The notes under the pieces were generated by a model. That model was not told the DNA's origin, ran no database searches, and saw only the letters and a program-made list of their open reading frames with translations. The position numbers and the translations under genes were made by a program. A stretch of 39,397 bases of DNA, from positions 1-39,397 of the IMG/VR virus record IMGVR_UViG_3300020601_000026; one strand, 5' to 3'. Positions 1-22,555 of the stretch are shown here, piece after piece; positions within the stretch are counted from its first letter, which is position 1, and the number at the start of each line of letters is the position of its first letter. The stretch is from a virus.

Positions 1-1947
1 GATATCGTTACGGGTTGGAATACTCGTCTATTCGATATTCCTTATCTTGTCAATCGTATCGCTCGTATCATGGGTGATGACATGGTCAAAAAGCTATCGC
101 CTTGGGGTGTAGTTCAGTACCGTAAGATTGCGGTCAAGGGTAAGGAACTCGATACATACGAAATGTATGGTATCTCTCAACTTGACTACTATGACCTGTT
201 TCAAAAGTTTGGTTATTCGTATGGCGCACAGGAATCATACAAGCTTGACCATATCGCTCATGTTGTACTAGGCGAGCGTAAGTTGTCCTACGAGGAACAC
301 AGTTCGCTTCATGCCTTGTACAAACACGACTTTCAAAAGTTCATTGATTATAACATCAAGGACGTAGAGTTGGTTGACCGTCTTGAGGACAAGATGGGTC
401 TGATTACTCTCGCACTTACTATGGCCTACAAGGCTGGTGTCAACTATCAGGATACTTTTGGAACAACTATGATTTGGGATACGATCATCTATCGTGATCT
501 TGCAGCTAAGAACATTGTTCCACCTCCATCAACCGACAAGTTCAAAGCTGACTATCCAGGTGGTTACGTGAAGGAACCTCAAGTAGGTCTTCACGAGTGG
601 GTTTGTTCATTCGATCTAAACTCGCTGTATCCCAACATCATTGTTCAATGGAACATGAGTCCAGAGACAATCATCGAGGGTATGACTGAACCGGACATTA
701 ATCCGGACACGTGCCTTGATGGCGCAAGCAATCCTAACTCCAATATGGCTCTAGCCGCAAACGGAGTTTACTTCTCTAAGGAACGTCAAGGTATCATTCC
801 TGCCATCATTGTTCAGTACTACGATGAGCGTAGGCTCGTCAAGAACAAAATGCTCGAGGCAAAACAATTACTTGAGCAGGCTGATAAGTCTGATAAGCAA
901 AGGATCTATGAGATCGAACGTGACATCAGTCATTACGAAAACCAACAAATGTCAATCAAGATTCTTATGAACTCTCTGTATGGCGCACTTGGTAATCGTT
1001 ACTTCCGTTACTTCGATCTCCGTGTTGCTGAAGCAATCACGCTGTCAGGTCAACTTGCAGTTCGTTGGGCAGAGAAAACGGTTAACCTCCGTATGAACCA
1101 ACTACTTAAGACTGACAACTTTGATTATGTTATCGCTATTGATACTGATTCGTTGTACATCAACTTTGGTCCGATGGTCAATAAGTTTGAGCCTAAGGAT
1201 CCCGTTGCGTTTCTTGATGAGGTATGTAAGGGTGAGTTCGAAAAAGTACTTGCAGAATCGTATGATGGTCTGTTCAAACAGTTCGCGTGTTACACTAATC
1301 GTATGGAGATGGGTCGTGAGGTAATCGCTGACCGTGGCATATGGACCGCTAAGAAACGTTACATTCTAAACGTACACAACAACGAAGGTGTTCAATACGC
1401 TGAACCTAAGCTCAAGATCATGGGCATCGAGGCAATCAAGTCATCAACACCATCCGCTTGTCGTGAAGCACTCAAGGAATTGTTCAAGGTTATCGTAAGT
1501 GGTTCTGAAACAAAAACTCAACACGCCATTCAGTCGTTCAAGGAATACTTCTCAACCCTTAAGCCTGAGGAGGTATCATTTCCACGCGGTGTATCCGATA
1601 TCGCAAAGTGGAAGGACAGTAAAACCATCTATAAGAAAGGCTGTCCAATCCATGTTCGTGGCGCATTGTTATATAATATGGCAGTCAAGGACAAGGGTCT
1701 TGACAAGAAGTACACCATGATTCAAAACGGAGAGAAGATTAAGTTCTGCTATATGAAGGTACCTAATCCTATCAGAGAAAACGTAATCTCTTTCCCAGAC
1801 TATCTGCCTGCCGAGTTACAACTTGAAAAGTACATTGACTACGATAAGCAGTTCGAAAAAACATTCTTGGATCCAATCATTCCAATTCTTGATGCGGTTG
1901 GCTGGAATCCCGAGGATACACAAACACTAGAAGACTTTTTTGCATAG
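1..1947 (+). CDS. 43: Family B DNA polymerase, T4 gp43-like (5' end missing)
   Basis: Replicative DNA polymerase with 3'-5' proofreading. The reading frame is open from base 1, so the gene starts upstream and the N-terminal part with the Exo I motif is outside the window. Visible motifs in order: Exo II (TGWNTRLFDIPYL, residues 4-16 of the fragment), Exo III (YNIKDVELVDRL), Pol motif A (SFDLNSLYPNII), motif B (KILMNSLYGALGN) and motif C (IDTDSLYIN, with the two catalytic aspartates). These match phage T4 gp43 and the family B signature. All three polymerase motifs are intact, so the enzyme should be active. The next gene follows after 9 bases, with AGGAG before its ATG. Identification is secure; only the missing N-terminus limits it. 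Confidence 0.97.
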   Translation, partial: DIVTGWNTRLFDIPYLVNRIARIMGDDMVKKLSPWGVVQYRKIAVKGKELDTYEMYGISQLDYYDLFQKFGYSYGAQESYKLDHIAHVVLGERKLSYEEHSSLHALYKHDFQKFIDYNIKDVELVDRLEDKMGLITLALTMAYKAGVNYQDTFGTTMIWDTIIYRDLAAKNIVPPPSTDKFKADYPGGYVKEPQVGLHEWVCSFDLNSLYPNIIVQWNMSPETIIEGMTEPDINPDTCLDGASNPNSNMALAANGVYFSKERQGIIPAIIVQYYDERRLVKNKMLEAKQLLEQADKSDKQRIYEIERDISHYENQQMSIKILMNSLYGALGNRYFRYFDLRVAEAITLSGQLAVRWAEKTVNLRMNQLLKTDNFDYVIAIDTDSLYINFGPMVNKFEPKDPVAFLDEVCKGEFEKVLAESYDGLFKQFACYTNRMEMGREVIADRGIWTAKKRYILNVHNNEGVQYAEPKLKIMGIEAIKSSTPSACREALKELFKVIVSGSETKTQHAIQSFKEYFSTLKPEEVSFPRGVSDIAKWKDSKTIYKKGCPIHVRGALLYNMAVKDKGLDKKYTMIQNGEKIKFCYMKVPNPIRENVISFPDYLPAELQLEKYIDYDKQFEKTFLDPIIPILDAVGWNPEDTQTLEDFFA

Positions 1948-1956
1948 GAGAATATT

Positions 1957-2379
1957 ATGAGCAAAGATTGGGTAAAAGATATCAATGAAATGCACGCTAA
2001 GTATGGCGTTCATAAGTGGATGCAAGCACAGATGCAATCCGACGTGGATTGGAAGGTTCTTGATGAGTTCCTTAAGTTCCGTCTAAAGTTTCTTGATGAA
2101 GAATTGAACGAAACGAAAAAAGCAGTCGTTGAGCGAGATCCTGAAGAGATCGTTGACGGTTTAATTGATCTATGCGTTGTTGCGATTGGTACACTGGATG
2201 CTTTTGGCGTGGATGCGCATAAGGCATGGGATGAGGTTCACCGAGCCAACATGGCAAAAGAACCAGGTGTTAAAGAAAGCCGTCCTAATCCATTGGGTCT
2301 ACCTGACTTAATCAAACCTGAAGGATGGACTGCTCCAAGTCATGAGGACAATCATGGAAATCTCGCTAACGCTGTTTAA
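1957..2379 (+). CDS. MazG-like nucleotide pyrophosphohydrolase
   Basis: A 140-residue all-alpha NTP pyrophosphatase candidate (MazG/HisE/dUTPase superfamily). The metal-binding helices are visible as EELNE near residue 48 and EIVDGLIDLCVVA near 65-77, giving the ExxE...ExxD pattern of the fold. The C-terminal phrase HRANMAKEP followed by KPEGWTAPS is also typical of phage MazG/PRA-PH-like proteins. The family removes the terminal diphosphate from (d)NTPs. Its place between the polymerase and other nucleotide-pool enzymes suggests trimming of the dNTP pool. In T4 a dCTPase (gp56) does this when cytosine is replaced; that role here is inference. AGGAG sits 7 bases before the ATG. Confidence 0.8.
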   Translation: MSKDWVKDINEMHAKYGVHKWMQAQMQSDVDWKVLDEFLKFRLKFLDEELNETKKAVVERDPEEIVDGLIDLCVVAIGTLDAFGVDAHKAWDEVHRANMAKEPGVKESRPNPLGLPDLIKPEGWTAPSHEDNHGNLANAV

Positions 2380-3362: not shown

Positions 3363-3911
3363 ATGGCTTATTATGACAAGGTGAATACCGATATCAAATT
3401 AAAACTTTATGTTGAACTTATACTCGAAAATCATCCAAACTTTGCTGAAGGGACCCCGTTCCGTGAAGCATTAATTCAAAAACCACAAGTCTTTAATATT
3501 GAACATCTTATTGAGGATATGATGGCCATCAGCTCAGGCGGCCAATACAATTTCATTGATGGAATACACGAAGACTTTGATGATGGTTCAGAATGCAAGA
3601 CTGGTACACTTCACCTTAATGGTCTTTCGTCAGCAGAAATCACAAATGTTAAATCTCAGAACGGTGTACTTAAGAAAGGTGCTGTTCGCTGTGTTGTACT
3701 TAATCCTCGTTTGGAAAAATTACATTTTGTCTTTATCCCTAAAAAGGCACTACTTGACTTGATGACTACTAAAAAAGGTACCATTAAGAAATCAAAATCA
3801 GCTTGGTTAAAATACACTGATAAGAAAGATTCTTTTGATCGTTGCTTTGAGAAATACGGTATCACTGAGTTTGATACATTCAAAGAACTTGCTATGGAGA
3901 AAAACCGCTAA
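3363..3911 (+). CDS. Hypothetical protein, possible PD-(D/E)xK-type fold
   Basis: A 182-residue protein I do not recognise. It is soluble, with no signal peptide or membrane segment. Residues 66-80 read DGIHEDFDDGSECKT; the D...ExK arrangement followed by a beta-like stretch (GAVRCVVLNP) resembles the active site of restriction-endonuclease-fold proteins, but this is only a motif-level hint. The C-terminus is lysine-rich. It is first in the transcript from the promoter at 3303; AAGGAG lies 9 bases before the ATG. Its stop codon overlaps the start of the DUF5664 gene (TAATG), so it is probably co-translated with the nucleotide-metabolism genes. Confidence 0.75.
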   Translation: MAYYDKVNTDIKLKLYVELILENHPNFAEGTPFREALIQKPQVFNIEHLIEDMMAISSGGQYNFIDGIHEDFDDGSECKTGTLHLNGLSSAEITNVKSQNGVLKKGAVRCVVLNPRLEKLHFVFIPKKALLDLMTTKKGTIKKSKSAWLKYTDKKDSFDRCFEKYGITEFDTFKELAMEKNR

Positions 3912-4228
3912 TGAAATACGACGAAGGTAAACCAAAGATCCATCTAGTACCACCCGAGGCAATCATCGAGGCTGCACGGGTTTTTGGCTTTGGTGCAGAA
4001 AAGTATGGTGAGAATAACTGGCGCAAAGACATACATAAGTTCCCTGTCTCGCGACACTATTCATCCATTCAACGCCACTTGATGGCTTATATGATGGGAG
4101 AGAATGATGATCCTGAAAGCGGTCTTCCACATCTGTCTCACGCCTTGACTCAAATGATGATTCTTATCATGACGACTCAAGAAGGTGATCCCGAAACAAC
4201 TGATGACCGTTTTAAGGAGAGTGAATAA
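3911..4228 (+). CDS. dATP/dGTP diphosphohydrolase-like protein (DUF5664)
   Basis: 105 residues matching the phage family annotated as dATP/dGTP diphosphohydrolase, N-terminal (DUF5664). Signature pieces: YDEGKPKIHLVPPEA at the start, FGAEKYGENNW, SRHYSSIQRHLMAYMMGEND and DPESGLPHLSHA. The conserved H/E/D residues fit an all-alpha NTP pyrophosphohydrolase. Such enzymes alter the dNTP pool. Relatives occur in 2-aminoadenine (Z-genome) phages, but no PurZ-like gene is present here, so a Z genome should not be inferred. It overlaps both neighbours by one to four bases, indicating translational coupling with the gene at 4228. Confidence 0.8.
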   Translation: MKYDEGKPKIHLVPPEAIIEAARVFGFGAEKYGENNWRKDIHKFPVSRHYSSIQRHLMAYMMGENDDPESGLPHLSHALTQMMILIMTTQEGDPETTDDRFKESE

Positions 4229-4890
4229 TGATCTTACCTACCGTAAAGGATATTCGTCAATTCTTTATTGATGAACTTAATGATGAAGCGTATACTATCG
4301 ACAAGACAGGTCAAAAAACCATTGAAATGCTTGGCGCAAGTTTCCTTGCTACTGAACCTGCTATCTTTGGTAAACCAGTGCAAAGTTATATTGATGCTGA
4401 GTTGGATTGGTACGAATCTCAATCCACCAACATTTTTGATATACATGGTGATGATAAGGAACCACCTGCAGCATGGAAGTATGCGGCCAACCAACACGGA
4501 GAAATCAATTCAAACTATGGGCATTTGATTTTCTCTGAAAAGTATAATCGTCAATACGATTCAGTGCTAGGCGAGTTGTCGGACAGTCCTGATGGCCGTC
4601 GTGCTACTATGATCTACAACAGACCGTCAATCTGGGCTGAATACAATGAGAACGGAAAGTCAGACTTTATCTGCACCAACGCTGTTACTTATTATATTCG
4701 CAATGATGAACTGCAGGCTGTTGTTCAAATGAGATCCAATGATGTTGTCTTTGGATACAAAAACGATTATGCATGGCAACAACACGTACTTGAAATGTTG
4801 GCCGATGACCTTGAGATAGCTCCAGGCTTTATTACATGGCAGGTTCAAAACCTTCATGTGTATGAACGCCACTTTGATCTGGTAAAATGA
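4228..4890 (+). CDS. Thymidylate synthase-family protein, probable dCMP (hydroxy)methylase
   Basis: A 220-residue member of the thymidylate synthase/dCMP hydroxymethylase family. The catalytic Cys is C149, exactly 20 residues before R169 of the RSND motif (same spacing as C146-R166 in E. coli ThyA). The motif QNLHVYERHFDL near the C-terminus matches the nucleotide-binding DxHxYxxH region. At the position of ThyA Asn177, which selects dUMP, this protein has Asp180 (GYKND). Asp there is known in dCMP hydroxymethylase (T4 gp42 Asp179). A complete ThyX at 14415 can make dTMP, so a distinct role is likely. I infer 5-hydroxymethyl- or methyl-dCMP synthesis. Asn179 next to Asp180 leaves some alignment doubt. 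It overlaps the upstream gene and is followed at once by dCMP deaminase. Confidence 0.8.
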   Translation: MILPTVKDIRQFFIDELNDEAYTIDKTGQKTIEMLGASFLATEPAIFGKPVQSYIDAELDWYESQSTNIFDIHGDDKEPPAAWKYAANQHGEINSNYGHLIFSEKYNRQYDSVLGELSDSPDGRRATMIYNRPSIWAEYNENGKSDFICTNAVTYYIRNDELQAVVQMRSNDVVFGYKNDYAWQQHVLEMLADDLEIAPGFITWQVQNLHVYERHFDLVK

Positions 4891-4891
4891 G

Positions 4892-5353
4892 ATGAGTGCT
4901 GATTGGGATAGAAGATACCTAGCACTGGCTAAAGAGATATCTAGTTGGTCAAAGGATCCGTCAAGAAAGATTGGCGCAGTCGCGGTTGGAACTAAAGGTC
5001 AAGTTTTGGCTCAAGGCTACAATGGATTCCCTCGTGGAATCGCAGACAGTCGTGATCGTTATAACGATCGCCCTGTCAAGTATAAGTATGTTGTTCATGC
5101 TGAGATGAACTGCATATATAATGCTACTTATAATGGTGTATCGCTTGACGGTTCAATTATGTACGTATGGGGATTACCTATGTGTTCTGATTGCGCCAAA
5201 GGTGTTATACAAGTTGGAGTGAAACACGTCCTCTGGGGTACGGATATGCTTATCCCAAAAACCTGGGTGGACTCTTTGGAAGATACTACAGATATGTTTA
5301 GAGAGGCTGGTGTGAAAATTACTTGTTTACATTCGCCAGGATCTGTGGTATAA
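4892..5353 (+). CDS. cd: Deoxycytidylate deaminase
   Basis: 153 residues. The zinc-dependent deaminase signature is complete: HAE at residues 69-71 (His ligand and catalytic Glu) and PMCSDC at 96-101 (Cys98 and Cys101 ligands). N-terminal KDPSRKIGAVAV and GYNGFPRG match dCMP deaminases such as T4 Cd. The enzyme converts dCMP to dUMP for thymidylate synthesis and, in T4, balances dCMP between dTMP and hydroxymethyl-dCMP. It begins one base after the stop of the TS-family gene, without a strong Shine-Dalgarno, so translation is probably coupled. The next promoter is buried in its 3' end, and the TATAAT box supplies its TAA stop codon. Confidence 0.92.
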   Translation: MSADWDRRYLALAKEISSWSKDPSRKIGAVAVGTKGQVLAQGYNGFPRGIADSRDRYNDRPVKYKYVVHAEMNCIYNATYNGVSLDGSIMYVWGLPMCSDCAKGVIQVGVKHVLWGTDMLIPKTWVDSLEDTTDMFREAGVKITCLHSPGSVV

Positions 5354-5363: not shown

Positions 5364-5834
5364 ATGGAAAATTGTACTGACGTAATATTCATTGGCATGC
5401 AGCCATCAAAAGCGCGGTTTCGTAAGAACTGCGCTATTGACCGTTTTAGTATATGGATGGAGAAACTAGGTATCAACTGTGTTACCTTTCAGAACGCAAT
5501 CACTGATGTGGATCTTCCGCAAAAGGTAACATCAGCTGATTTCCAAATGCTATATAGATGTGTACAAGGATACAACAAAGTTGTTGCCCTTGGCGCACTG
5601 TCATCGCAGATACTAAAAACGATGGGTATACCACACTTTCGTATGCCACATCCGTCGCCTAGAAATCGTTTGCTGAACGATAAGGCATATGAAGAAATGA
5701 TGTTAATTGAACTCAGGAGTTATATTGATGGTGAACCTAGTGATTCCGGCAGCTGGAGCAGCTACGAGGCTGCGTCCACTTTCGACAAATACCTCAAAGG
5801 TAATGGTTCGAGTCAACGGCAAGCCATGCCTTGA
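5364..5834 (+). CDS. Uracil-DNA glycosylase superfamily-like protein
   Basis: 156 residues. Residues 7-15 (VIFIGMQPS) resemble the UDG-fold motif 'GxNPS', and residues 74-102 run VVALGALSSQILKTMG then HPSPRNR, similar to the C-terminal DNA-intercalation HPSP motif of UDG families 4-6. The known catalytic Asp/Asn is not obvious, since residue 13 is Gln, so it may bind or process another base or be a non-catalytic relative. It sits inside the candidate base-modification cluster. No Shine-Dalgarno precedes the ATG, and the promoter is only about 10 bases away. The last 36 codons overlap the next gene in another frame, so the tail is probably not conserved. Confidence 0.65.
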   Translation: MENCTDVIFIGMQPSKARFRKNCAIDRFSIWMEKLGINCVTFQNAITDVDLPQKVTSADFQMLYRCVQGYNKVVALGALSSQILKTMGIPHFRMPHPSPRNRLLNDKAYEEMMLIELRSYIDGEPSDSGSWSSYEAASTFDKYLKGNGSSQRQAMP

Positions 5835-7206
5835 CTATATAATCGAACACGCAAACAAGATGGCTGATATCGATGAGATCGTTGTTGTTGACGGTCAGTT
5901 TAATGATATTCGTGAGTACTGCTCTCGTCGTCATCCAAAAGTTAAAGTGGTGAATCAACCCTCTTTGGATGGACCTCGTGATGCCATATCCATCGGTATG
6001 AATGCACTTAAGGATCCTAATAAACCCGTTGTTGTTTGGTTAGGCGATGCAATCATTCTTGATGAATCCATGAATCTTGGCGAGGACTTCTTACTATGTA
6101 AAGAGGTAAAGAACCATTCTGACTGGTGTATGTGGGACGGTAGTACGTTCTATAATAAACCTACGCAGAACGTCACGGATGGTGTGGCACTGGTTGGCCT
6201 ATATTCGTTTAAGAATGGTTCACATGCTCAGATGGCCTTTTCGTCAACTGATGAATATGATATCTCTCATGCCTTGACCTTGTACGGTAAGTTTGACAAA
6301 GTACTTACAGATAAGTGGTACGACATTGGTGATCTACCAACGTATTACCAAACGTGTGCATCTCTTCTTGATATGAAATCGCGTGAGTTCAATCGTATGA
6401 TATACGACCACGATCTAGGTACACTGACAAAGACTCCTGACTATCATAACAAAGAATCAGTACTTACGTTAACGTGTGAGCGGTTATGGTACAATGGATT
6501 ATCCTTTGAGCAAAAGTGTTTCGTACCACGAGTGTTTAACGATGGTCAGAATATCGTTATGTCATTTGAGTCAGGTACGTTGCTTTCTGATTTAATGTTG
6601 TACGAGAATCTTAGTGAATCCGCATGGGAATATATCGTTGATAAGTTGTTTCGTATTAAGCTAAACTATTTTAGCACACGCTGTTCGGATCGAAACTTCA
6701 CTGATAAGTTTGCTGAGCAAGCAGACAAAATCTGGTTGGATAAGACCAATAAAAGACTTAAGAACACTGACCTGCCACCTAAACTTCAGAGCAAGATTAG
6801 TTCAATGGCATGGCGTGTCTGCAGGAATACATATCCTATTGAGTGTATGCACGGAGATCTTCATTTCGGCAATGTACTATACAATCAGCAAACGGATCAA
6901 ATGAAACTAATTGATCCTCGTGGCCGTTATGGTAACGAAATTGGTACTGAAGGTGATAATCTATACGACTGGGCTAAACTTGCTCACGATCTATATCATG
7001 GGTACAACGCAATGGTCGCTGATGTAAAACATAACGAGTTAGTAAAGCGAATCTTCGTTCAGAAACTCCATGAATACAATCTTCCTGTTGATGATATCAT
7101 TAATGGTGGTTTGGTACTACTAGCAACGTGCATCCCACTTCATTATGATGACAGTGAGAGACAACAAAGGTTTCTTAACTACGTAAAGGAATATAATTAT
7201 GACTGA
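5728..7206 (+). CDS. Fused sugar-type nucleotidyltransferase and APH/choline-kinase-like kinase
   Basis: 492 residues, two domains. Residues 1 to about 230 form a nucleotidyltransferase: PAAGAATRLRPLS is the GxGxRxxP NTP-binding loop, VVVWLGDAI the metal/substrate strand, and KWYDIGDLPTYYQT the typical C-terminal motif. Residues from about 240 form a small-molecule kinase: CMHGDLHFGNVLY (HGDxHxxN catalytic loop) and LIDPRGRYG (the DxD/DFG-like metal site). Such pairs phosphorylate and NTP-activate sugars, choline-like or polyol compounds. With the HAD phosphatase next door this looks like synthesis of an activated group donor. ATG 5728 is chosen for the CAGGAG 9 bases upstream; TTG 5707 is a less likely start. 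The substrate is unknown. Confidence 0.85.
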   Translation: MVNLVIPAAGAATRLRPLSTNTSKVMVRVNGKPCLDYIIEHANKMADIDEIVVVDGQFNDIREYCSRRHPKVKVVNQPSLDGPRDAISIGMNALKDPNKPVVVWLGDAIILDESMNLGEDFLLCKEVKNHSDWCMWDGSTFYNKPTQNVTDGVALVGLYSFKNGSHAQMAFSSTDEYDISHALTLYGKFDKVLTDKWYDIGDLPTYYQTCASLLDMKSREFNRMIYDHDLGTLTKTPDYHNKESVLTLTCERLWYNGLSFEQKCFVPRVFNDGQNIVMSFESGTLLSDLMLYENLSESAWEYIVDKLFRIKLNYFSTRCSDRNFTDKFAEQADKIWLDKTNKRLKNTDLPPKLQSKISSMAWRVCRNTYPIECMHGDLHFGNVLYNQQTDQMKLIDPRGRYGNEIGTEGDNLYDWAKLAHDLYHGYNAMVADVKHNELVKRIFVQKLHEYNLPVDDIINGGLVLLATCIPLHYDDSERQQRFLNYVKEYNYD

Positions 7207-7570
7207 TACAATTGTTTTTGATCTTGATGATACGATCTGCTATCCTAACTTAGACCAACCTGACACAAAGCAGCGGTATGGTAATGCACAGCCAAACGGT
7301 CGTGTGATATCCATCATGCAAAGGTTAAAGGCAAAGGGATACCACATCATCATCCACAGCGCACGAAGAATGGTCACACATAATGGTGATATAGATAAAA
7401 TTGAGAACGATGTTGGTCAAGTAACTAAGGATTGGCTAAAGTTCTACGGTGTACCATACGATGATCTAATCTTTGGTAAACCATACGCCTCAACGTACTA
7501 TGTTGACGATAAGGCAATGAACCTAAAGCAACTATATGAATGGGTAAGCGATGAAGATAGCAATAGGTAA
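7199..7570 (+). CDS. HAD-superfamily phosphatase, capsule-biosynthesis type
   Basis: 123 residues. Motif I is FDLDDTICYP (residues 7-16, nucleophile Asp and acid/base Asp), motif II is IIHSARR near residue 54, and YYVDDKAMN near residue 101 is motif IV. There is no large cap domain, so substrates are probably small phosphates. Similar short HAD proteins occur next to nucleotidyltransferases in capsule and LPS loci, where they remove a phosphate during NDP-sugar synthesis. It overlaps the upstream kinase/nucleotidyltransferase by 8 bases and the next gene by 20, indicating a coupled pathway. AAGGA lies about 7 bases before the ATG. Substrate not inferable. Confidence 0.85.
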   Translation: MTDTIVFDLDDTICYPNLDQPDTKQRYGNAQPNGRVISIMQRLKAKGYHIIIHSARRMVTHNGDIDKIENDVGQVTKDWLKFYGVPYDDLIFGKPYASTYYVDDKAMNLKQLYEWVSDEDSNR

Positions 7571-8807
7571 GGTCGGAAAGTCAATTCTATTCGACTCAAA
7601 CAAATGGGGTGCAATCGGCGGAGACAATGAGGCACCTATCTTTTACGAAAATCTGTTTCACAACAACCCTGACGTAGATTTCTATCTCGTTGGGGTATCT
7701 GACTTTACACGGTTGGATCGTAAGGAACAGGAACGTATCAATAAGCACGGTAATGTTCACGATGTTTGGGAACACTTTAATCATTGGCGTAAGACATACG
7801 ATGGCGACGAGCGTGGCGAGCGTATCTTTTATATGCAGGATTGGATGAAGAATCTATCACCTAAGTTTGATGCAGGCCTTTTCTTTATGGGTCCAACCGC
7901 AACATCAAACGTATGGGGTAAGGCACGTAAGGTAACCGAACCTGATAAACTCGCTTCACCACTTATGATGCAATGTAAGTATGCAGGTCCTGTGGTTGAC
8001 TTTATCAATGAAACCGGAATGCCATACGCAATCATCCTAAACGATCCACGATTCTTCCCAGCTCAAATGCGGGATCTTTTCCATAGACCACAGGTTATCT
8101 TGAGTCAGTATACCGAAGAGATCAACCACCGTGCCTGGAAGGCCTATACTGATATGGAGATGACTCATGTTAAAATACCTGCCGAATATAAAGCAATGGA
8201 AACAATCTTCCTCATTGGTAAGGAAAGAGGTAAAGCCATCGTTGATACTCCATCTACTCTGGATTCATTCTTCACTGATGCGGTAGAACGTAAGCCGGGT
8301 GAGAAGGACATTAACTTTATGATCGTATGTAACGAGGGTAGACCATCACGGTACAATGATCTCAAGAAATACATCCTCGATAACGTAGAGGAAGTGGACA
8401 TCTATGGTAAGTGGGACGAGCGAACGATTGGCGAGGATCCGCGATTCAAAGGTCCAAAGAAGTTTAATGATCTGCAGGAAATGCTTCCACGAGTTAAGTA
8501 TACGTTCTGCATTCCAATCAAGAAGGGTTGGGTAACCGCTAAGTTCTGGGAGATGGCCCACTATGGTATTATCCCTTTCTTACATCCAACATACGACGAA
8601 CAAGACAACCTTAAGTGTCCAGAGTTTTTAAGAGTAACGGATTCTGCTGACTTGTTCAAAAAAATTCAGTTCCTTGAGGACAATCCTGAAGCATACGAAA
8701 CACTAAAGGGCAATATCGAAAGCATGCTTAAGGATGAATACTACGATGGGTCGTATCTCAACGATCTTGCCATGAACACGCTGAAGGAGATTACAGCACA
8801 TGAATGA
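7551..8807 (+). CDS. Glycosyltransferase-like protein (GT-B type), candidate DNA-base glycosyltransferase
   Basis: 418 residues, soluble. The N-terminal half begins KIAIGKVGKSILFDS and contains DAGLFFMGPT and YAIILNDPRFF, as in an acceptor-binding Rossmann domain. The C-terminal half, VDIYGKWDER, FNDLQEMLPRVKYTFCIP, KGWVTAKFWEMAHYGIIPFL, followed by a helix with EDNPEAYETL, looks like the nucleotide-sugar-binding half of GT-B enzymes. T4 alpha- and beta-glucosyltransferases for hydroxymethylcytosine have this fold. The exact family is not recognised and DNA as acceptor is inferred only from the neighbours: an activated-donor synthase just upstream and a cytosine-C5 methyltransferase-like protein just downstream, all overlapping. 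An alternative is modification of a host glycan. Confidence 0.6.
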   Translation: MKIAIGKVGKSILFDSNKWGAIGGDNEAPIFYENLFHNNPDVDFYLVGVSDFTRLDRKEQERINKHGNVHDVWEHFNHWRKTYDGDERGERIFYMQDWMKNLSPKFDAGLFFMGPTATSNVWGKARKVTEPDKLASPLMMQCKYAGPVVDFINETGMPYAIILNDPRFFPAQMRDLFHRPQVILSQYTEEINHRAWKAYTDMEMTHVKIPAEYKAMETIFLIGKERGKAIVDTPSTLDSFFTDAVERKPGEKDINFMIVCNEGRPSRYNDLKKYILDNVEEVDIYGKWDERTIGEDPRFKGPKKFNDLQEMLPRVKYTFCIPIKKGWVTAKFWEMAHYGIIPFLHPTYDEQDNLKCPEFLRVTDSADLFKKIQFLEDNPEAYETLKGNIESMLKDEYYDGSYLNDLAMNTLKEITAHE

Positions 8808-10032
8808 TATTACTTATGGTTCGATCGTTCCACTTATTGGTGGCGAGAACTTTGGAATTATGAAATCACTTGAGGGTCAATTACCAGAGTGGGTACTTTC
8901 GTACACTGACTTTGCTAAGAACGATGCTCATTTTATTAACCATCTTAAAGAGAAGGATTGGAAAGGTGAATATGTTTTCCTTAATGAAGAGGGCAACGAA
9001 GGATACAAGGCTAAAACCGTTGATGTGGTTAATACTGTTTGCCCTTGTGCTGGACTTAGTTCTCTCTCCGTTTCATCATCTGCAGATTCTGCAGTAAACG
9101 AATGGATGTATACGACTTCGGAATATGTTCTTAGTGAGATTAAGCCTAAGGTATTCTGGGGTGAGAACGCACCTCGTCTTTATACGAAGGCTGGTGAAAA
9201 GGTTGCCAATCGCCTGTATGAAATTGGTAAGCAGCATGGTTACTCGCTTAACTTGTATTACACAGAGTCCAGACTACACGGTTTGGCCCAAAAGCGACCA
9301 CGTACGTTTTACTTCTTTACGAAGGGTACTGACAGCGCACCGTTGTTTAGGTATATCCGCCGTCCTCTTGAAAACATCGAGGATATTCTTAAAGCGGATA
9401 TTAGTCCTGACGATCCTATGAACCGTTTGATTAACTCAGACAATCCGATGGATAATCCTTGGGTTGCTTACTGCGTTCACAAGTCAGGATCAAAGACACT
9501 TGCTGAATATTACGAAAAGATTGAGAAGACGACCAACTGTATCGTATCATCCGATAACATTTCAGATAACCTAAACGAGGTTGCTGATTGGATGGAACAA
9601 CAGGGGTTTGACCAAAAGTTCGCTGACCGCGCTCGAGCAATGCAAGAGAAGGTCGACGGAGGTAAGGGTTATTGGGCACACGGTGTCACAATGCCAAAGG
9701 GGGAAATCCCATCATTGATTGGCGCAATGCCACACTCACTGATTAATCCATTCAAGGAGCAGTTCTTGACTCTACGTGATGCGCTTCGTATCATGAAGAT
9801 GCCGGATGATTTCAATATGATTGGCGATAATCCTCAATCGCCAGGAAACGCAAATGCTATCTGTCAGAACGTCCCAGTGACTACTGCGGCTGATATGATG
9901 GACTTTGTAGTTGAGTACTTAAAAGGTATGACTGATACGGTATCAAGTGATTATGTTAGACAGAACAATTCTAGCATGAAGCATGAGATCGTTAATGAAG
10001 ATCTTGTAGAGCTTGACCAATTTTTTGTATAA
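8800..10032 (+). CDS. Cytosine-C5 DNA methyltransferase-family protein
   Basis: 410 residues. Recognisable motifs: I (YGSIVPLIGGENFG, residues 6-19), IV with the catalytic Cys (TVCPCAGLSS; PCQ replaced by PCA), VI (WGENAPRL in place of ENV), VIII (GLAQKRPRTFYF) and a final region NANAICQNVPVTTAADMM equivalent to motifs IX-X. Motif I is degenerate compared with DLFAGxGG, so the cofactor site may be altered. The family methylates C5 of cytosine in DNA; phages may use such enzymes for protection or as the first step of a hypermodification. It overlaps the glycosyltransferase-like gene by 8 bases and ends the cluster. Activity and sequence specificity cannot be read from sequence alone. Confidence 0.75.
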   Translation: MNDITYGSIVPLIGGENFGIMKSLEGQLPEWVLSYTDFAKNDAHFINHLKEKDWKGEYVFLNEEGNEGYKAKTVDVVNTVCPCAGLSSLSVSSSADSAVNEWMYTTSEYVLSEIKPKVFWGENAPRLYTKAGEKVANRLYEIGKQHGYSLNLYYTESRLHGLAQKRPRTFYFFTKGTDSAPLFRYIRRPLENIEDILKADISPDDPMNRLINSDNPMDNPWVAYCVHKSGSKTLAEYYEKIEKTTNCIVSSDNISDNLNEVADWMEQQGFDQKFADRARAMQEKVDGGKGYWAHGVTMPKGEIPSLIGAMPHSLINPFKEQFLTLRDALRIMKMPDDFNMIGDNPQSPGNANAICQNVPVTTAADMMDFVVEYLKGMTDTVSSDYVRQNNSSMKHEIVNEDLVELDQFFV

Positions 10033-14167: not shown

Positions 14168-14424
14168 GGTACACGTTTAAGAATCGCTACGGTGACACTA
14201 TGTCTATCGTAGAAATAGATAAATCAACCCTTTTATGGAGAGGATCCCATAACCACGAAAGGATCTCGTGTAACGAGGCTGGGACGATCACAATGGTCGA
14301 CCCGTCAGGAGGGCCATATATTTGTGAAGGGCAAGACATCGGTTTGGACTATCCCCCTTGGAAAGGCCGAATCGTTGACCACTTTCAGCATCATGAAGAA
14401 GGATACTTAATTTTATGCAGGTAA
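14143..14424 (+). CDS. Hypothetical protein
   Basis: 93 residues, soluble and beta-rich in appearance: RYTFKNRYGDTMSIVEIDKS, LLWRGSHNHERISC, then a Pro/Gly-rich stretch (DPSGGPYICEGQDIGLDYPPWKG) and a His-rich end (DHFQHHEEGYLILC). No family recognised. AAGGA stands about 8 bases before the ATG. It overlaps both neighbours (25 and 10 bases) and lies directly before thyX in the same transcript. Confidence 0.6.
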   Translation: MVDTKEEVRYTFKNRYGDTMSIVEIDKSTLLWRGSHNHERISCNEAGTITMVDPSGGPYICEGQDIGLDYPPWKGRIVDHFQHHEEGYLILCR

Positions 14425-15113
14425 GACTAATCGGTTATACTCAACCCGTAGCGGATGCGATCATTGGAATAGATGATGTTCAGGATTTGATCGCGTACTG
14501 CGCCAGAGTCTCTAACCCAGATAATCAGCTGAATCAGAAAACAGCGAAAAAGCTGTTGAACTATTTGGCCAAACATAAGCATTGGTCTCCCTTTGAGATG
14601 GCGTCAGCAACGATGGAGATCGAAACGACTCGTGACATCGCACGTCAGATCTTGCGACACCGTTCCTTTTCGTTTCAAGAGTTTAGTCAGCGATACGCGG
14701 ATCCTACCCAGGATCTTAGTTTTGTAAAACGAGAAGCAAGATTACAGGATCCTAAGAACCGACAGAACTCGGTAGACATCGAAAGCGATCCTTCCCTTGT
14801 GGATAACGTAAAGAATCAGGAACTGATCGCGGAGTGGGGTCGCCGACAAAGCGGTATCATTGAACTGGCAAAGAAACACTATCGTTGGGCTGTAGAGAAT
14901 AACATCGCAAAGGAACAGGCTCGTGCGGTACTACCTGAAGGCCTAACAGTTTCTAGGATGTATATGAATGGAACCATACGGTCTTGGATCCACTTCATTG
15001 AACTGCGATCAGGAAACGGAACACAAAAGGAGCACATGGAGGTCGCTAAGGCTTGCGCAAAAGCAATCGTAGAAATCTTCCCATTGGCCAATGAATACAT
15101 TTCTTCTAAATAA
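14415..15113 (+). CDS. thyX: Flavin-dependent thymidylate synthase ThyX
   Basis: 232 residues. The ThyX motif RHRxxSxxExSxRY is complete at residues 81-94 (RHRSFSFQEFSQRY). Further family features are YCARVSNPDNQ near residue 28, HWSPFEMASATMEI near 56, and ARAVLPEGLTVSRMYMNGTIRSW. The enzyme makes dTMP from dUMP using FAD, methylene-tetrahydrofolate and NADPH. It takes the dUMP produced by the dCMP deaminase. Its presence means the TS-family protein at 4228 is not needed for dTMP and is free to act on dCMP. Confidence 0.95.
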   Translation: MQVRLIGYTQPVADAIIGIDDVQDLIAYCARVSNPDNQLNQKTAKKLLNYLAKHKHWSPFEMASATMEIETTRDIARQILRHRSFSFQEFSQRYADPTQDLSFVKREARLQDPKNRQNSVDIESDPSLVDNVKNQELIAEWGRRQSGIIELAKKHYRWAVENNIAKEQARAVLPEGLTVSRMYMNGTIRSWIHFIELRSGNGTQKEHMEVAKACAKAIVEIFPLANEYISSK

Positions 15114-19457: not shown

Positions 19458-20699
19458 ATGCAGACGTTCAAAACATATATCGCTGAGGCGGCTAAGAACC
19501 TCCATATGACTCACCTTGAGGATCAAGTAATCTATGGTGGAGTGAATGGCGCAAGACAAGCAATCCTTGCTCTTCGTTCTCTTCGTGATATGTTAGCCGG
19601 TGAGGCAAAACGTCCGGTTGATGTAACCGTCAAATGGGACGGAGCACCAGCCATCTTTGCTGGAGTGGATCCAAGGGATGGTAAGTTCTTTGTTGCTAAG
19701 AAAGGCGTGTTCAATAAAAACCCTAAGATCTATAAGACTGATGCCGATATCGATGCGGATACATCCGGTGATCTATCAAATAAGCTAAAGACTTGCCTTA
19801 AGTATATGCCTTCACTTGGTATCAAAGGTGTGGTTCAAGGCGACTTGATGTTTACGTCTGATGATATTGATACCGATACTATTGACGGTACTAAGTACTA
19901 TACCTTTCAGCCAAACACAATCGTATATGCAGTACCCGTTGACTCTGACGGCGCAAAGGAAATCAAAAAGGCTAAGATGGGTATCGTATTTCATACACGA
20001 TACACCGGATCTGACTTTGAGTCAATGAAAGCATCGTTTGATGTTAAGGCTTCTGAGTTTAAGGCAACACCAAATGTTTGGTTCCAAGATGCAACCCTTA
20101 GGGATCTATCAGGTACGGCTACGTTGACTAAGAAGGATACCGACGAGGTAACCAAGGCATTATCCGAAGCGGGTAAGATATTCCGTAAGATTGCTGGATC
20201 AACTCTTCGTGAGATCGAAGGAAATGAAACCTTGGCTCAAACCATTGAGACTTACAATAATACGTTTGTTCGTAAGCAGGAAGTCATCAAGGATACTAGA
20301 AAACATGTTGACGGATTAATCAAATATATATCTGATAAGTATCAAAAAGAAATCGATACCAAAAAGTCAGAGAAGGGTAAGGCAACATGGGAAGGCAAGA
20401 AGGCGGATATCTTAAAGTTCTTTTCTTCCTCAAATAAAGCTAACCTAAAACTACTGTTTGATTTGCAAAAAGCAATCGTTTCTGCGAAACTTATTATTAT
20501 AAATAAACTAAACAGGTTGCAAAAGATGTCAACATTCGTTCGTACTCCAAACGGATTTAAGACGACAGGTGTTGAAGGATACGTTGCAATCGACAAGTTA
20601 AGTGGTGGTGCAGTTAAGTTGGTGGACCGTATGGAGTTCTCCTACAACAACTTTAGCCCTGATATTATTAAAGGCTGGGACAAACCGTCTCGATCCTAA
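19458..20699 (+). CDS. Nucleic-acid-ligase-like protein with capsid-targeting-like N-terminus
   Basis: 413 residues. VTVKWDGAPAIFAG near residues 58-71 contains KWDG, the KxDG lysine motif of ATP-dependent DNA/RNA ligases. FVAKKGVF, GVVQGDLMF and later VEGYVAIDKLSGGAVKLVDR (motifs IV and V, EGxV...KLV) fit the nucleotidyltransferase fold in order. The N-terminus, MQTFKTYIAEA, closely resembles the T4 internal-protein targeting peptide MKTYQEFIAEA, with IAE as a possible gp21 protease cut. I infer a ligase or RNA-processing enzyme packaged in the capsid. It follows the previous late gene by 8 bases. Confidence 0.65.
   Translation: MQTFKTYIAEAAKNLHMTHLEDQVIYGGVNGARQAILALRSLRDMLAGEAKRPVDVTVKWDGAPAIFAGVDPRDGKFFVAKKGVFNKNPKIYKTDADIDADTSGDLSNKLKTCLKYMPSLGIKGVVQGDLMFTSDDIDTDTIDGTKYYTFQPNTIVYAVPVDSDGAKEIKKAKMGIVFHTRYTGSDFESMKASFDVKASEFKATPNVWFQDATLRDLSGTATLTKKDTDEVTKALSEAGKIFRKIAGSTLREIEGNETLAQTIETYNNTFVRKQEVIKDTRKHVDGLIKYISDKYQKEIDTKKSEKGKATWEGKKADILKFFSSSNKANLKLLFDLQKAIVSAKLIIINKLNRLQKMSTFVRTPNGFKTTGVEGYVAIDKLSGGAVKLVDRMEFSYNNFSPDIIKGWDKPSRS
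20498..20505 (+). promoter_or_regulatory. Possible internal late promoter
   Basis: A perfect TATAAATA inside the ligase-like gene, about 210 bases before the next start at 20715. The sequence encodes ordinary residues there, so this may be chance; a weak internal late start remains possible. Confidence 0.25.
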
Positions 20700-20714: not shown

Positions 20715-21116
20715 ATGAAAGACTATAAACAAGTTCAACGAGAGCTTACGGAATTAAATGCAGATGGACATCAAGACTCGACTGACGAGGCCTTGACTGC
20801 TCAACAGCGAATGAAGCTGAAGCAATCCATCCGTCGTAACAAGGCTAAGATTCGCCTTGGACGTGAAAAGGCAAAACGTAAGACCGCGTCTCCAGAGGTA
20901 CTACAAAAGAGAGCTAACAAACAGGCTCGTAACGCTATCCTTAAAAAGATACTAAAGAACAAGGATAAAAGCGACCTCAGTTATTCCCAAAGATCATCCA
21001 TTGAAAAGCAGCTCGATAAAAAGAAGTCTGCTATCAAGCGTATCGCTAAACAACTCCTTCCAAAAATTCGTAAGGCCGACCGTGCTAAGTTAAGCGGCGG
21101 TAAGAAGGAGAAGTAA
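20715..21116 (+). CDS. Small highly basic protein
   Basis: 133 residues, dominated by Lys and Arg (RRNKAKIRLGREKAKRK, KKIAKQLLPKIRKADRAK), helical, without a membrane segment. The mix of basic helical repeats matches a group of short basic proteins found beside structural genes in marine T4-like phages. Such a protein could bind DNA or RNA or form part of the prohead core. It begins 13 bases after the ligase-like gene, and its stop overlaps the next ATG (TAATG). Confidence 0.7.
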   Translation: MKDYKQVQRELTELNADGHQDSTDEALTAQQRMKLKQSIRRNKAKIRLGREKAKRKTASPEVLQKRANKQARNAILKKILKNKDKSDLSYSQRSSIEKQLDKKKSAIKRIAKQLLPKIRKADRAKLSGGKKEK

Positions 21117-22555
21117 TGTCTTTTAAGAGTTTTGCTGAATACGTTACCGAAGAGACGAAAGAAGTCGTCGTTGCATGGGGTCGATATAATCCCCCTACGA
21201 TTGGTCATGAGAAGCTTATGACTGTTGTTAAAAAGGTTGCGGGTAGCGGTCAGTACAGAATCTATGCATCTCAATCGCAGGATCCCAAAGAGAATCCTAT
21301 TGAGTATAAAACCAAAGTAAAATATATGCGCAAGATGTTTCCAAAACATGCGCGCAGCATTATGCTTGAACCAAAGATCCGTACAATGTTTGATCTGATG
21401 ACCAAACTATACGACGAAGGATTTACTAAGGTAACCCTCGTTGCTGGTTCTGACAGAGTTCCTGAGTATGATGTAACACTAAATAAGTATAACGGTGTAA
21501 AGGGTCGCCACGGTTTCTATAACTTTGAGGGTGGCGTTAACATCGTATCGGCAGGACAGCGAGATCCTGACGCAAAGGGCGCAGCGGGTATGTCTGCATC
21601 TAAGCTCAGAGCTGCGGCCGAAAATAACGATTTCAAAACATTCAGTAAAGGTATGCCTGCTGGGTTCAAAGAAACCCAACAGTTGTTCAATGATGTTCGC
21701 AAAGGTATGGGTCTGAAGGAATCATATGACTTTAGATCTCACTTGCAGTTACAGTCAGTGTCGGAGGAAAGGGAAGCCTACGTTTCTGGAGATCTATATA
21801 AAGAAGGTGATCTTATTGTCGTAAAGGAAGACGACGAGGTTGGTGAGATCATTATGCTAGGATCTAATTACGTATTGGTCGAAATGGCTAGTGGTAAAAA
21901 GGTACGTAAATGGTTAACCGACATTGAGTTGGTTGAGAAACTAAAACCACAAGATCCTGATGCTGATGAAGTTCCAGGGTCTCAACCTAAAGGTTACTAC
22001 AAAGGTGTTGATAAGGATAAGAAAGTCGCACGGGCTAAGCACTTCCAACGAGGCGCTAAGAGTGACGATGATGATCCTGCTTCTTATAAGCCTGCTCCAG
22101 GAGATGCCGAGGCCAAGACTAAGCCATCCAAATTTACTAAAAAGTTCAAAAGAATGTATGGTGAGCAGGACGCAACTGACAAGGCCAAGGAACGTATTGA
22201 TAGAGAAAAAGAATCTGATAAGATTAAGCATGACCGTATGATGGATCGTGCAAGGCTCAGAGATACCAAAGCAAAAAATCAAGAGGAAGATGTGAAATCA
22301 TTTAGTTCATTTGCTGGTATCATGACCGAGGATACTACTGCAGCACTTAAGAAGAAAGCTGATAAATCAGGCATGCCAGTAGGGATCCTAAGAAAAGTTT
22401 ATAACCGTGGCGTAGCCGCTTGGAGAACAGGACATCGTCCTGGTACTACTCCTGCACAGTGGGGTATGGCTCGCGTCAATTCATTCGTAACTAAATCGTC
22501 AGGAACTTGGGGCAAGGCTGATTCCGATCTTGCTTCTAAAGTAAGGGGAAAATAA
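21116..22555 (+). CDS. Cytidylyltransferase-fold protein with DUF5824-like tail
   Basis: 479 residues, modular. Residues 15-200: nucleotidyltransferase of the HIGH-type superfamily, with WGRYNPPTIGHEKLM (GRFxPxxxGH) and GMSASKLRAAA (the ISSTxxR-like motif). Around 215-280 (VSGDLYKEGDLIVV, VLVEMASGKKVRKWL) an SH3/KOW-like domain follows. A charged linker leads to a tail from about 395: KKADKSGMPVGILRKVYN, RGVAAWRTGHRPGTTPAQWG, ARVNSF, matching DUF5824. The protein begins MSFKSFAEYVTEE, like a capsid-targeting peptide, and a second such motif (VKSFSSFAGIMTED) stands just before the tail. The substrate is unknown. Confidence 0.85.
   Translation: MSFKSFAEYVTEETKEVVVAWGRYNPPTIGHEKLMTVVKKVAGSGQYRIYASQSQDPKENPIEYKTKVKYMRKMFPKHARSIMLEPKIRTMFDLMTKLYDEGFTKVTLVAGSDRVPEYDVTLNKYNGVKGRHGFYNFEGGVNIVSAGQRDPDAKGAAGMSASKLRAAAENNDFKTFSKGMPAGFKETQQLFNDVRKGMGLKESYDFRSHLQLQSVSEEREAYVSGDLYKEGDLIVVKEDDEVGEIIMLGSNYVLVEMASGKKVRKWLTDIELVEKLKPQDPDADEVPGSQPKGYYKGVDKDKKVARAKHFQRGAKSDDDDPASYKPAPGDAEAKTKPSKFTKKFKRMYGEQDATDKAKERIDREKESDKIKHDRMMDRARLRDTKAKNQEEDVKSFSSFAGIMTEDTTAALKKKADKSGMPVGILRKVYNRGVAAWRTGHRPGTTPAQWGMARVNSFVTKSSGTWGKADSDLASKVRGK

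Follow-up and report, generated by a model that had tools for sequence, protein, structure and literature searches.

A T4 gp42-type dCMP hydroxymethylase gene and its predicted cytosine-glycosylation cassette in a viral genome fragment

Results

Gene content of the window

The window, by which we mean the entire 39,397-nucleotide stretch of viral DNA that was analysed, carries the following genes and signals:

70-1947, plus strand: C-terminal portion of a T4-type DNA polymerase, at the edge of the window (phrog_262, E 1.5e-243)
1957-2379, plus strand: PRA-PH/MazG-like nucleotide pyrophosphohydrolase, a candidate dCTP-pool enzyme (PF01503, E 1.5e-12)
3911-4228, plus strand: dATP/dGTP diphosphohydrolase N-terminal-type protein (PF18909, E 8e-29)
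4214-4219, plus strand: AAGGAG, the likely ribosome-binding site of the hydroxymethylase gene, read from the sequence
4228-4890, plus strand: dCMP hydroxymethylase, T4 gp42 homologue (220 aa, ATG start; Cys149, Arg169, Asp180)
4892-5353, plus strand: dCMP deaminase (PF00383, E 2e-17; phrog_174, E 1e-41)
5364-5834, plus strand: uracil-DNA glycosylase (UDG)-superfamily-fold protein (AF2 model, pLDDT 77)
5728-7206, plus strand: NTK, a nucleotidyltransferase-kinase fusion with predicted sugar-phosphate kinase and NDP-sugar pyrophosphorylase activities (PF00483, E 9e-14)
7199-7570, plus strand: HAD phosphatase with DxDxT motif (PF25109, E 2e-6)
7551-8807, plus strand: GT-B glycosyltransferase, predicted to act on 5-hydroxymethylcytosine (hmC) in DNA (AF2 model, pLDDT 84)
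8800-10032, plus strand: C5-cytosine-methyltransferase relative (PF00145, E 3.5e-13)
14415-15113, plus strand: ThyX, flavin-dependent dTMP synthase (PF02511, E 4e-43)

The start codon of the hydroxymethylase gene shares one base with the upstream stop codon (TAATG), and the dCMP deaminase gene starts one base 3′ of it. The hydroxymethylase, dCMP deaminase, UDG-fold protein, NTK, HAD phosphatase, glycosyltransferase and C5-methyltransferase relative form a cassette that recurs in related contigs, and in the window uvsX comes after the C5-methyltransferase relative. The NTK is a homologue of RB69 ORF53_52c (24% identical to its Shf125875 counterpart, E 1e-12), and the HAD phosphatase of the RB69-type 051c protein (E 4e-6); relatives of both are found in phages with arabinosylated cytosine. 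The PRA-PH family co-occurs with cytosine modification (PMC8670742); hhalign gave no link between the PRA-PH protein of the window and T4 gp56. No kinase for 5-hydroxymethyl-dCMP (hmdCMP) was recognised in the 39-kb window fragment. A protein search of eight long contigs returned nothing for T4 gp1; the DNMK profile matched two of six long contigs, and a 170-kb relative encoding both the hydroxymethylase and a glycosyltransferase of the 7551 type has a DNMK-family (T4 gp1) match. A TET/JBP search gave no match, and its controls gave none either. Elsewhere in the window, 19458-20699 and 21116-22555 correspond to separate portions of phrog_455, as though a single protein family had been divided between two genes.

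Plain Foldseek of the 5364-5834 model gave weak matches, and the UDG fold emerged upon realignment with VIA-align, the best 50 rows of which comprised UDG family 4, UdgX, SMUG and TDG together with one phage polymerase (best Z 9.7). Many relatives also have the UDG-fold protein in their hmC cassettes, and its GxxPS and HPS..NR motifs are conserved.

The hydroxymethylase belongs to the T4 gp42 family

A preliminary description had assigned 4228-4890 to the thymidylate synthase (TS) family; the coordinates are correct, and the product matches Pfam Thymidylat_synt (E 4e-17) and has the thymidylate-synthase fold. Its best match among solved structures is T4 deoxycytidylate hydroxymethylase (PDB 1b49, phmmer E 2e-65), and T4 gp42 is its closest characterised relative, sharing 53% identity with it over 217 aligned columns; identity to the RB69-type enzyme is 24%, and to E. 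coli ThyA 23%. The best match among 50,697 phage records was likewise 53%, placing the protein in a clade without a close isolate. The C-terminus is approximately 20 residues shorter than that of T4 gp42; relatives span 218 to 259 aa.

Residues were compared in a MAFFT alignment of the protein with E. coli ThyA, T4 gp42 and 77 relatives from viral contigs. Cys149 and Arg169 keep the ThyA spacing, as had been proposed, and align with C146 and R166 of the E. coli enzyme and C148 and R168 of T4 gp42. Asp180 stands at E. coli Asn177 and T4 D179, as the preliminary description held by analogy to dCMP hydroxymethylase, and an independent phmmer alignment to PDB 1b49 concurs. The alignment shift that would have moved Asn179 into the key position, named there as grounds for refutation, is absent, since Asn179 aligns with E. 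coli F176 and T4 N178. Asp180, Cys149, Arg169, Glu58, Trp83 and Asp172 are each kept in 78 of 78 aligned family members. Thr150 occupies the position of E. coli His147, and neither Asn177 nor His147 of ThyA is thus retained; these two positions best separate the TS homologues of cytosine-modified from those of unmodified viral contigs, the former mostly carrying Asp at 177 (PMC8670742). The homology demonstrates a T4 gp42-type family member with the dCMP-selecting Asp180, and in itself the hydroxymethylase is an ordinary new member among known enzymes.

The aspartate marks a cytosine substrate, not the group that is added. We rejected the proposition that Asp at 177 alone proves hydroxymethylation, because the 5-hydroxy-dCMP synthase of the RB69 type also carries it. 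In Shigella phage Shf125875, the 048c protein, a close match to PDB 9iqu in the aligned stretch, likewise carries Asp at 177, but the Trp and Asp shared by ThyA, T4 gp42 and the 4228-4890 protein (Trp83 and Asp172; E. coli Trp80 and Asp169) are replaced in it by Ala and Asn. Another combination is seen in cyanophage S-TIM5 (L086:15906-16742), where a gene annotated as thymidylate synthase encodes Asp at 177 with His at 147 kept; it lies approximately 2.4 kb from a C5-methyltransferase relative.

The 7551 glycosyltransferase resembles T4 beta-glucosyltransferase in predicted fold

Foldseek of the 7551-8807 model placed T4 beta-glucosyltransferase ahead of all other solved structures (1qkj, E 1.4e-8), and VIA-align superposed the model on 1j39 with Z 19.7 and 4.5 Å over 311 residues. 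No confident family match was found for the glycosyltransferase sequence, and hhalign of its 18-row alignment against T4 beta-glucosyltransferase (beta-GT) returned a probability of 0.6%; the two are tied by the modelled fold only.

A C5-methyltransferase relative with an altered cofactor motif

In the C5-methyltransferase relative (8800-10032), Cys83 (in PC), Glu122-Asn123 and Gln164-x-Arg166-x-Arg168 are invariant (51/51 sequences). The FxGxG S-adenosylmethionine (SAM) motif I is absent and is replaced by [IV]PL[IV]GG, with P11 and L12 in 51/51; the acidic residue of motif II varies, and the Pfam match of the window protein starts past the motif I/II region. As a single sequence the protein had no PDB match; its alignment profile gave weak matches to M.HaeIII and M.HhaI, the listed local alignments running from about profile position 66 onward.

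The protein may still methylate. That it is an ordinary site-specific C5-methylase of residual unmodified cytosines strikes us as an evenly balanced proposition: the invariant catalytic Cys, ENA(P) and QxRxR speak in its favour, while the changed motif I, the variable motif II acid and co-occurrence with hmC genes, where unmodified cytosine should be scarce, speak against it. More speculatively, it may instead act on hmC through the same Cys chemistry.

A polymerase tail motif recurs in DNA-acting cassette enzymes

Short motifs of the LDxFF type occur at three places in the window:

1927-1941, plus strand: LEDFF, C-terminal motif of the DNA polymerase, the reference motif
8259-8273, plus strand: LDSFF, residues 237-241 of the glycosyltransferase, in a low-confidence linker (pLDDT about 47)
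10012-10026, plus strand: LDQFF, C-terminal motif of the C5-methyltransferase relative

The DNA polymerases of the loci end in LEDFFA or similar, comparable to SLDFLFG of T4 gp43. A motif matrix derived from polymerase tails alone was run, at a threshold of 7, on all distinct ORFs of at least 100 aa in the loci and gave 93 matches as against 2.5 expected from shuffled tails, to be read in light of the motif having been noticed before it was tested, of the loci being related and of some family members being without it. Polymerases made up 42 of the matches, and the 51 others all belonged to the C5-methyltransferase relative, alpha-GT, unk2, unk4, TAGT or glycosyltransferase families. None of the 557 unlabelled ORFs matched, nor did any hydroxymethylase, deaminase, sugar-nucleotide enzyme, uvsX, DnaB, primase or ThyX. 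Searching the final 14 residues for the plainer pattern L[DE]xF[FLMT] recovered 125 of 1344 ORFs from the same families and, in addition, the HMUDK-helical one. At the internal LDSFF site, members of the glycosyltransferase family keep L in 18/18, D in 17/18 and F-F in 16/16 within variable surroundings.

An LDxFF-type motif is thus common to the polymerase tail and DNA-acting modification enzymes in the window and in loci L002-L145, and is absent from the tails of the sugar-, nucleotide- and precursor-acting enzymes tested. Some members of the unassigned protein families unk2 and unk4 have a clamp-type tail. The motif is lacking in T4 alpha-GT, beta-GT and Dam. A gp45-type clamp was found in seven of eight long relatives.

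Judged from sequence, these tails suggest that the DNA-modifying enzymes of the cassette ride on the sliding clamp. T4 alpha-GT binds gp45, which beta-GT was not seen to do (PMC13216743), and this was the only case that we found in the literature on clamp binding by phage modification enzymes. Given the motif evidence, its limits and the T4 precedent, clamp tethering is therefore reasoned rather than demonstrated.

Cassettes have probably been exchanged behind the hydroxymethylase gene

A scan with the 7551 glycosyltransferase retrieved 40 viral loci, many of them near-identical. Wherever a locus extends sufficiently upstream it has a gp42-type gene, and wherever it extends sufficiently downstream it has the C5-methyltransferase relative. 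The order of the glycosyltransferase and HAD-NTK genes differs among loci, and some have a HAD-kinase fusion and a cytidylyltransferase-like gene instead of HAD-NTK. In Pseudoalteromonas phage XG4 the genes run HMase-HAD-NTK-GT-GT2-C5MT, and Enterococcus phage 9183 has an Asp-type TS homologue near HAD-NTK-GT.

The exchange site was surveyed in 42 loci spanning hydroxymethylase to uvsX, 25 of which contain the C5-methyltransferase relative. Across the relatives, no fewer than six alternative gene sets occupy this slot: T4 alpha-GT family plus epimerase and UDP-glucose-dehydrogenase-type genes; an inositol-phosphate-synthase-type gene with the HMUDK helical domain; a PLP-type enzyme with families unk2 and unk4 (L061:2968-3960, L043:12946-13998); UDP-galactopyranose mutase; TAGT; and others. 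No link between unk4 and the HMUDK helical family was found by hhalign. Mapping seven cassette labels onto the hydroxymethylase tree takes no fewer than 22 changes, compared with a possible minimum of 6 and a mean of 39 after shuffling; cassettes have therefore probably been exchanged repeatedly. Compared with window positions 4050-4650, contig L004 shows 93-97% identity just upstream of the hydroxymethylase gene and 73-75% inside it, the drop that recombination there would give, suggesting a recombination boundary within the gene. Plasticity of the DNA polymerase-uvsX region in T4-like phages is already known (PMC6024577).

Discussion

Taken together, a pathway for cytosine modification emerges that we consider very probable as a whole: the gp42-type enzyme would supply hmdCMP to DNA, the cassette would furnish an NDP-sugar, and the beta-GT-fold enzyme would transfer the sugar to hmC, conferring protection. 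Cys149 would attack C6 of dCMP, its cytosine selected by Asp180; with a carbon from methylene-tetrahydrofolate, attack of water on the exocyclic methylene would yield 5-hydroxymethyl-dCMP, which would be phosphorylated and then replace dCMP in DNA. The kinase, HAD phosphatase and nucleotidyltransferase would convert a sugar phosphate to the sugar-1-phosphate and then to the NDP-sugar, as proposed for NTK/HAD-related genes in RB69 and Thanatos (PMC6024577, PMC12838424). The sugar on hmC would probably protect the DNA from host nucleases.

The preliminary description had left the reaction at dCMP (hydroxy)methylation. The 53% identity to the T4 enzyme, the folate-site residues and the downstream gene with a predicted DNA-glycosyltransferase fold support this and allow it to be narrowed to hydroxymethylation, because that glycosyltransferase would need a hydroxyl. 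We thus infer that hydroxymethyl, rather than another group, is added. In RB69-like phages the TS homologue makes 5-hydroxy-dCMP (PMC13390438), and a synthase of that kind, in which Asp and Thr also occupy positions 177 and 147 and whose phages have homologous NTK and HAD genes, is a rival candidate that would leave the sugar joined to C5 directly via oxygen. We judge this very unlikely here: identity to the RB69-type enzyme is less than half of that to T4 gp42, and a comparison covering 18 window genes revealed no significant relative of the RB69-type 050c or of isomerase 055c. Hydroxymethylation is favoured because Trp83 and Asp172, both lost in the RB69-type enzyme, are retained.

Xanthomonas phage XP12 has a dCMP methylase that makes 5-methyl-dCMP. 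A single Asn-to-Asp change can turn a TS into such a methylase, according to work cited in PMC8670742, but an XP12-type activity would sit poorly with an identity so much higher to T4 gp42 than to ThyA and would leave the neighbouring glycosyltransferase without a hydroxyl target; we regard it as very unlikely. Least plausible, to the point of being scarcely credible, is a second dTMP synthase using dUMP, which the TS fold and the label 'thymidylate synthase' on homologues in many phage records might suggest; Asp180 and Thr150 argue against it, as does ThyX. The preliminary description had invoked a complete ThyX at 14415, and the PF02511 match is indeed full-length; ThyX makes a second dTMP synthase unnecessary, but says nothing on what the 4228-4890 enzyme does.

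The cassette adds a new variation to the known cytosine hypermodification systems of phages. T4 gp42 (PDB 1b49, 1b5d) shares the fold and all tested catalytic and dCMP-selecting residues; T4 uses host UDP-glucose, whereas the window gene has dCMP deaminase and a sugar-activation cassette beside it. The RB69/Mosigvirus arabinosyl-cytosine module (NTK ORF53_52c, 051c HAD, 048c; PDB 9iqu, 9iqc) has homologous NTK and HAD genes in the same order, an Asp-type TS homologue and the same location in the plastic region between DNA polymerase and uvsX. Unlike that module, the window has a gp42-type rather than a 5-hydroxy-dCMP-synthase-type TS homologue, a glycosyltransferase of another kind inside the cassette and the C5-methyltransferase relative, and no isomerase was found in it. 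For the pentose modification of Shewanella phage Thanatos (TH1_060, TH1_062, TH1_063; PMC12838424), a dCMP hydroxymethylase-like gene lies near a nucleotidyltransferase and phosphotransferase-domain gene, but gene content differs from the window cassette.

Asp at 177, PRA-PH and dCMP deaminase are markers of cytosine-modified viral contigs, and all three occur together in the 5-carbamoyloxymethyl-dC gene network (PMC8670742) as in the window; the window differs in its glycosyltransferase cassette, and no carbamoyltransferase was recognised in it. Bacillus phage G, an unrelated jumbo phage, encodes in one stretch (gp301-gp311, L155) a C5-methyltransferase relative, alpha-GT, nucleotidyltransferase, HAD and kinase-like protein as separate genes, with an Asp-type TS homologue approximately 5 kb beyond. 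T4 alpha-GT on the gp45 clamp (PMC13216743) likewise places a DNA-modifying enzyme at the sliding clamp; it has no LDxFF-type tail, and for the window proteins the motif is what points to clamp binding.

For specialists, the shared motif and the C5-methyltransferase relative are of most interest. The tail motif is a simple sequence rule that may separate DNA-acting from precursor-acting enzymes; it predicts that unk2 and unk4 act on DNA, and makes clamp recruitment of the T4 alpha-GT type testable as a general principle. We lean, by a little, towards a model in which marine T4-like phages keep the dCMP hydroxymethylase and swap the cassettes behind it, and in which the DNA-acting cassette enzymes, among them the C5-methyltransferase relative with its changed cofactor site, bear the clamp-binding motif of the polymerase and would therefore modify DNA at the replication fork. 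The cassette presents hmC as a fixed platform, on top of which phages would swap sugar chemistries.
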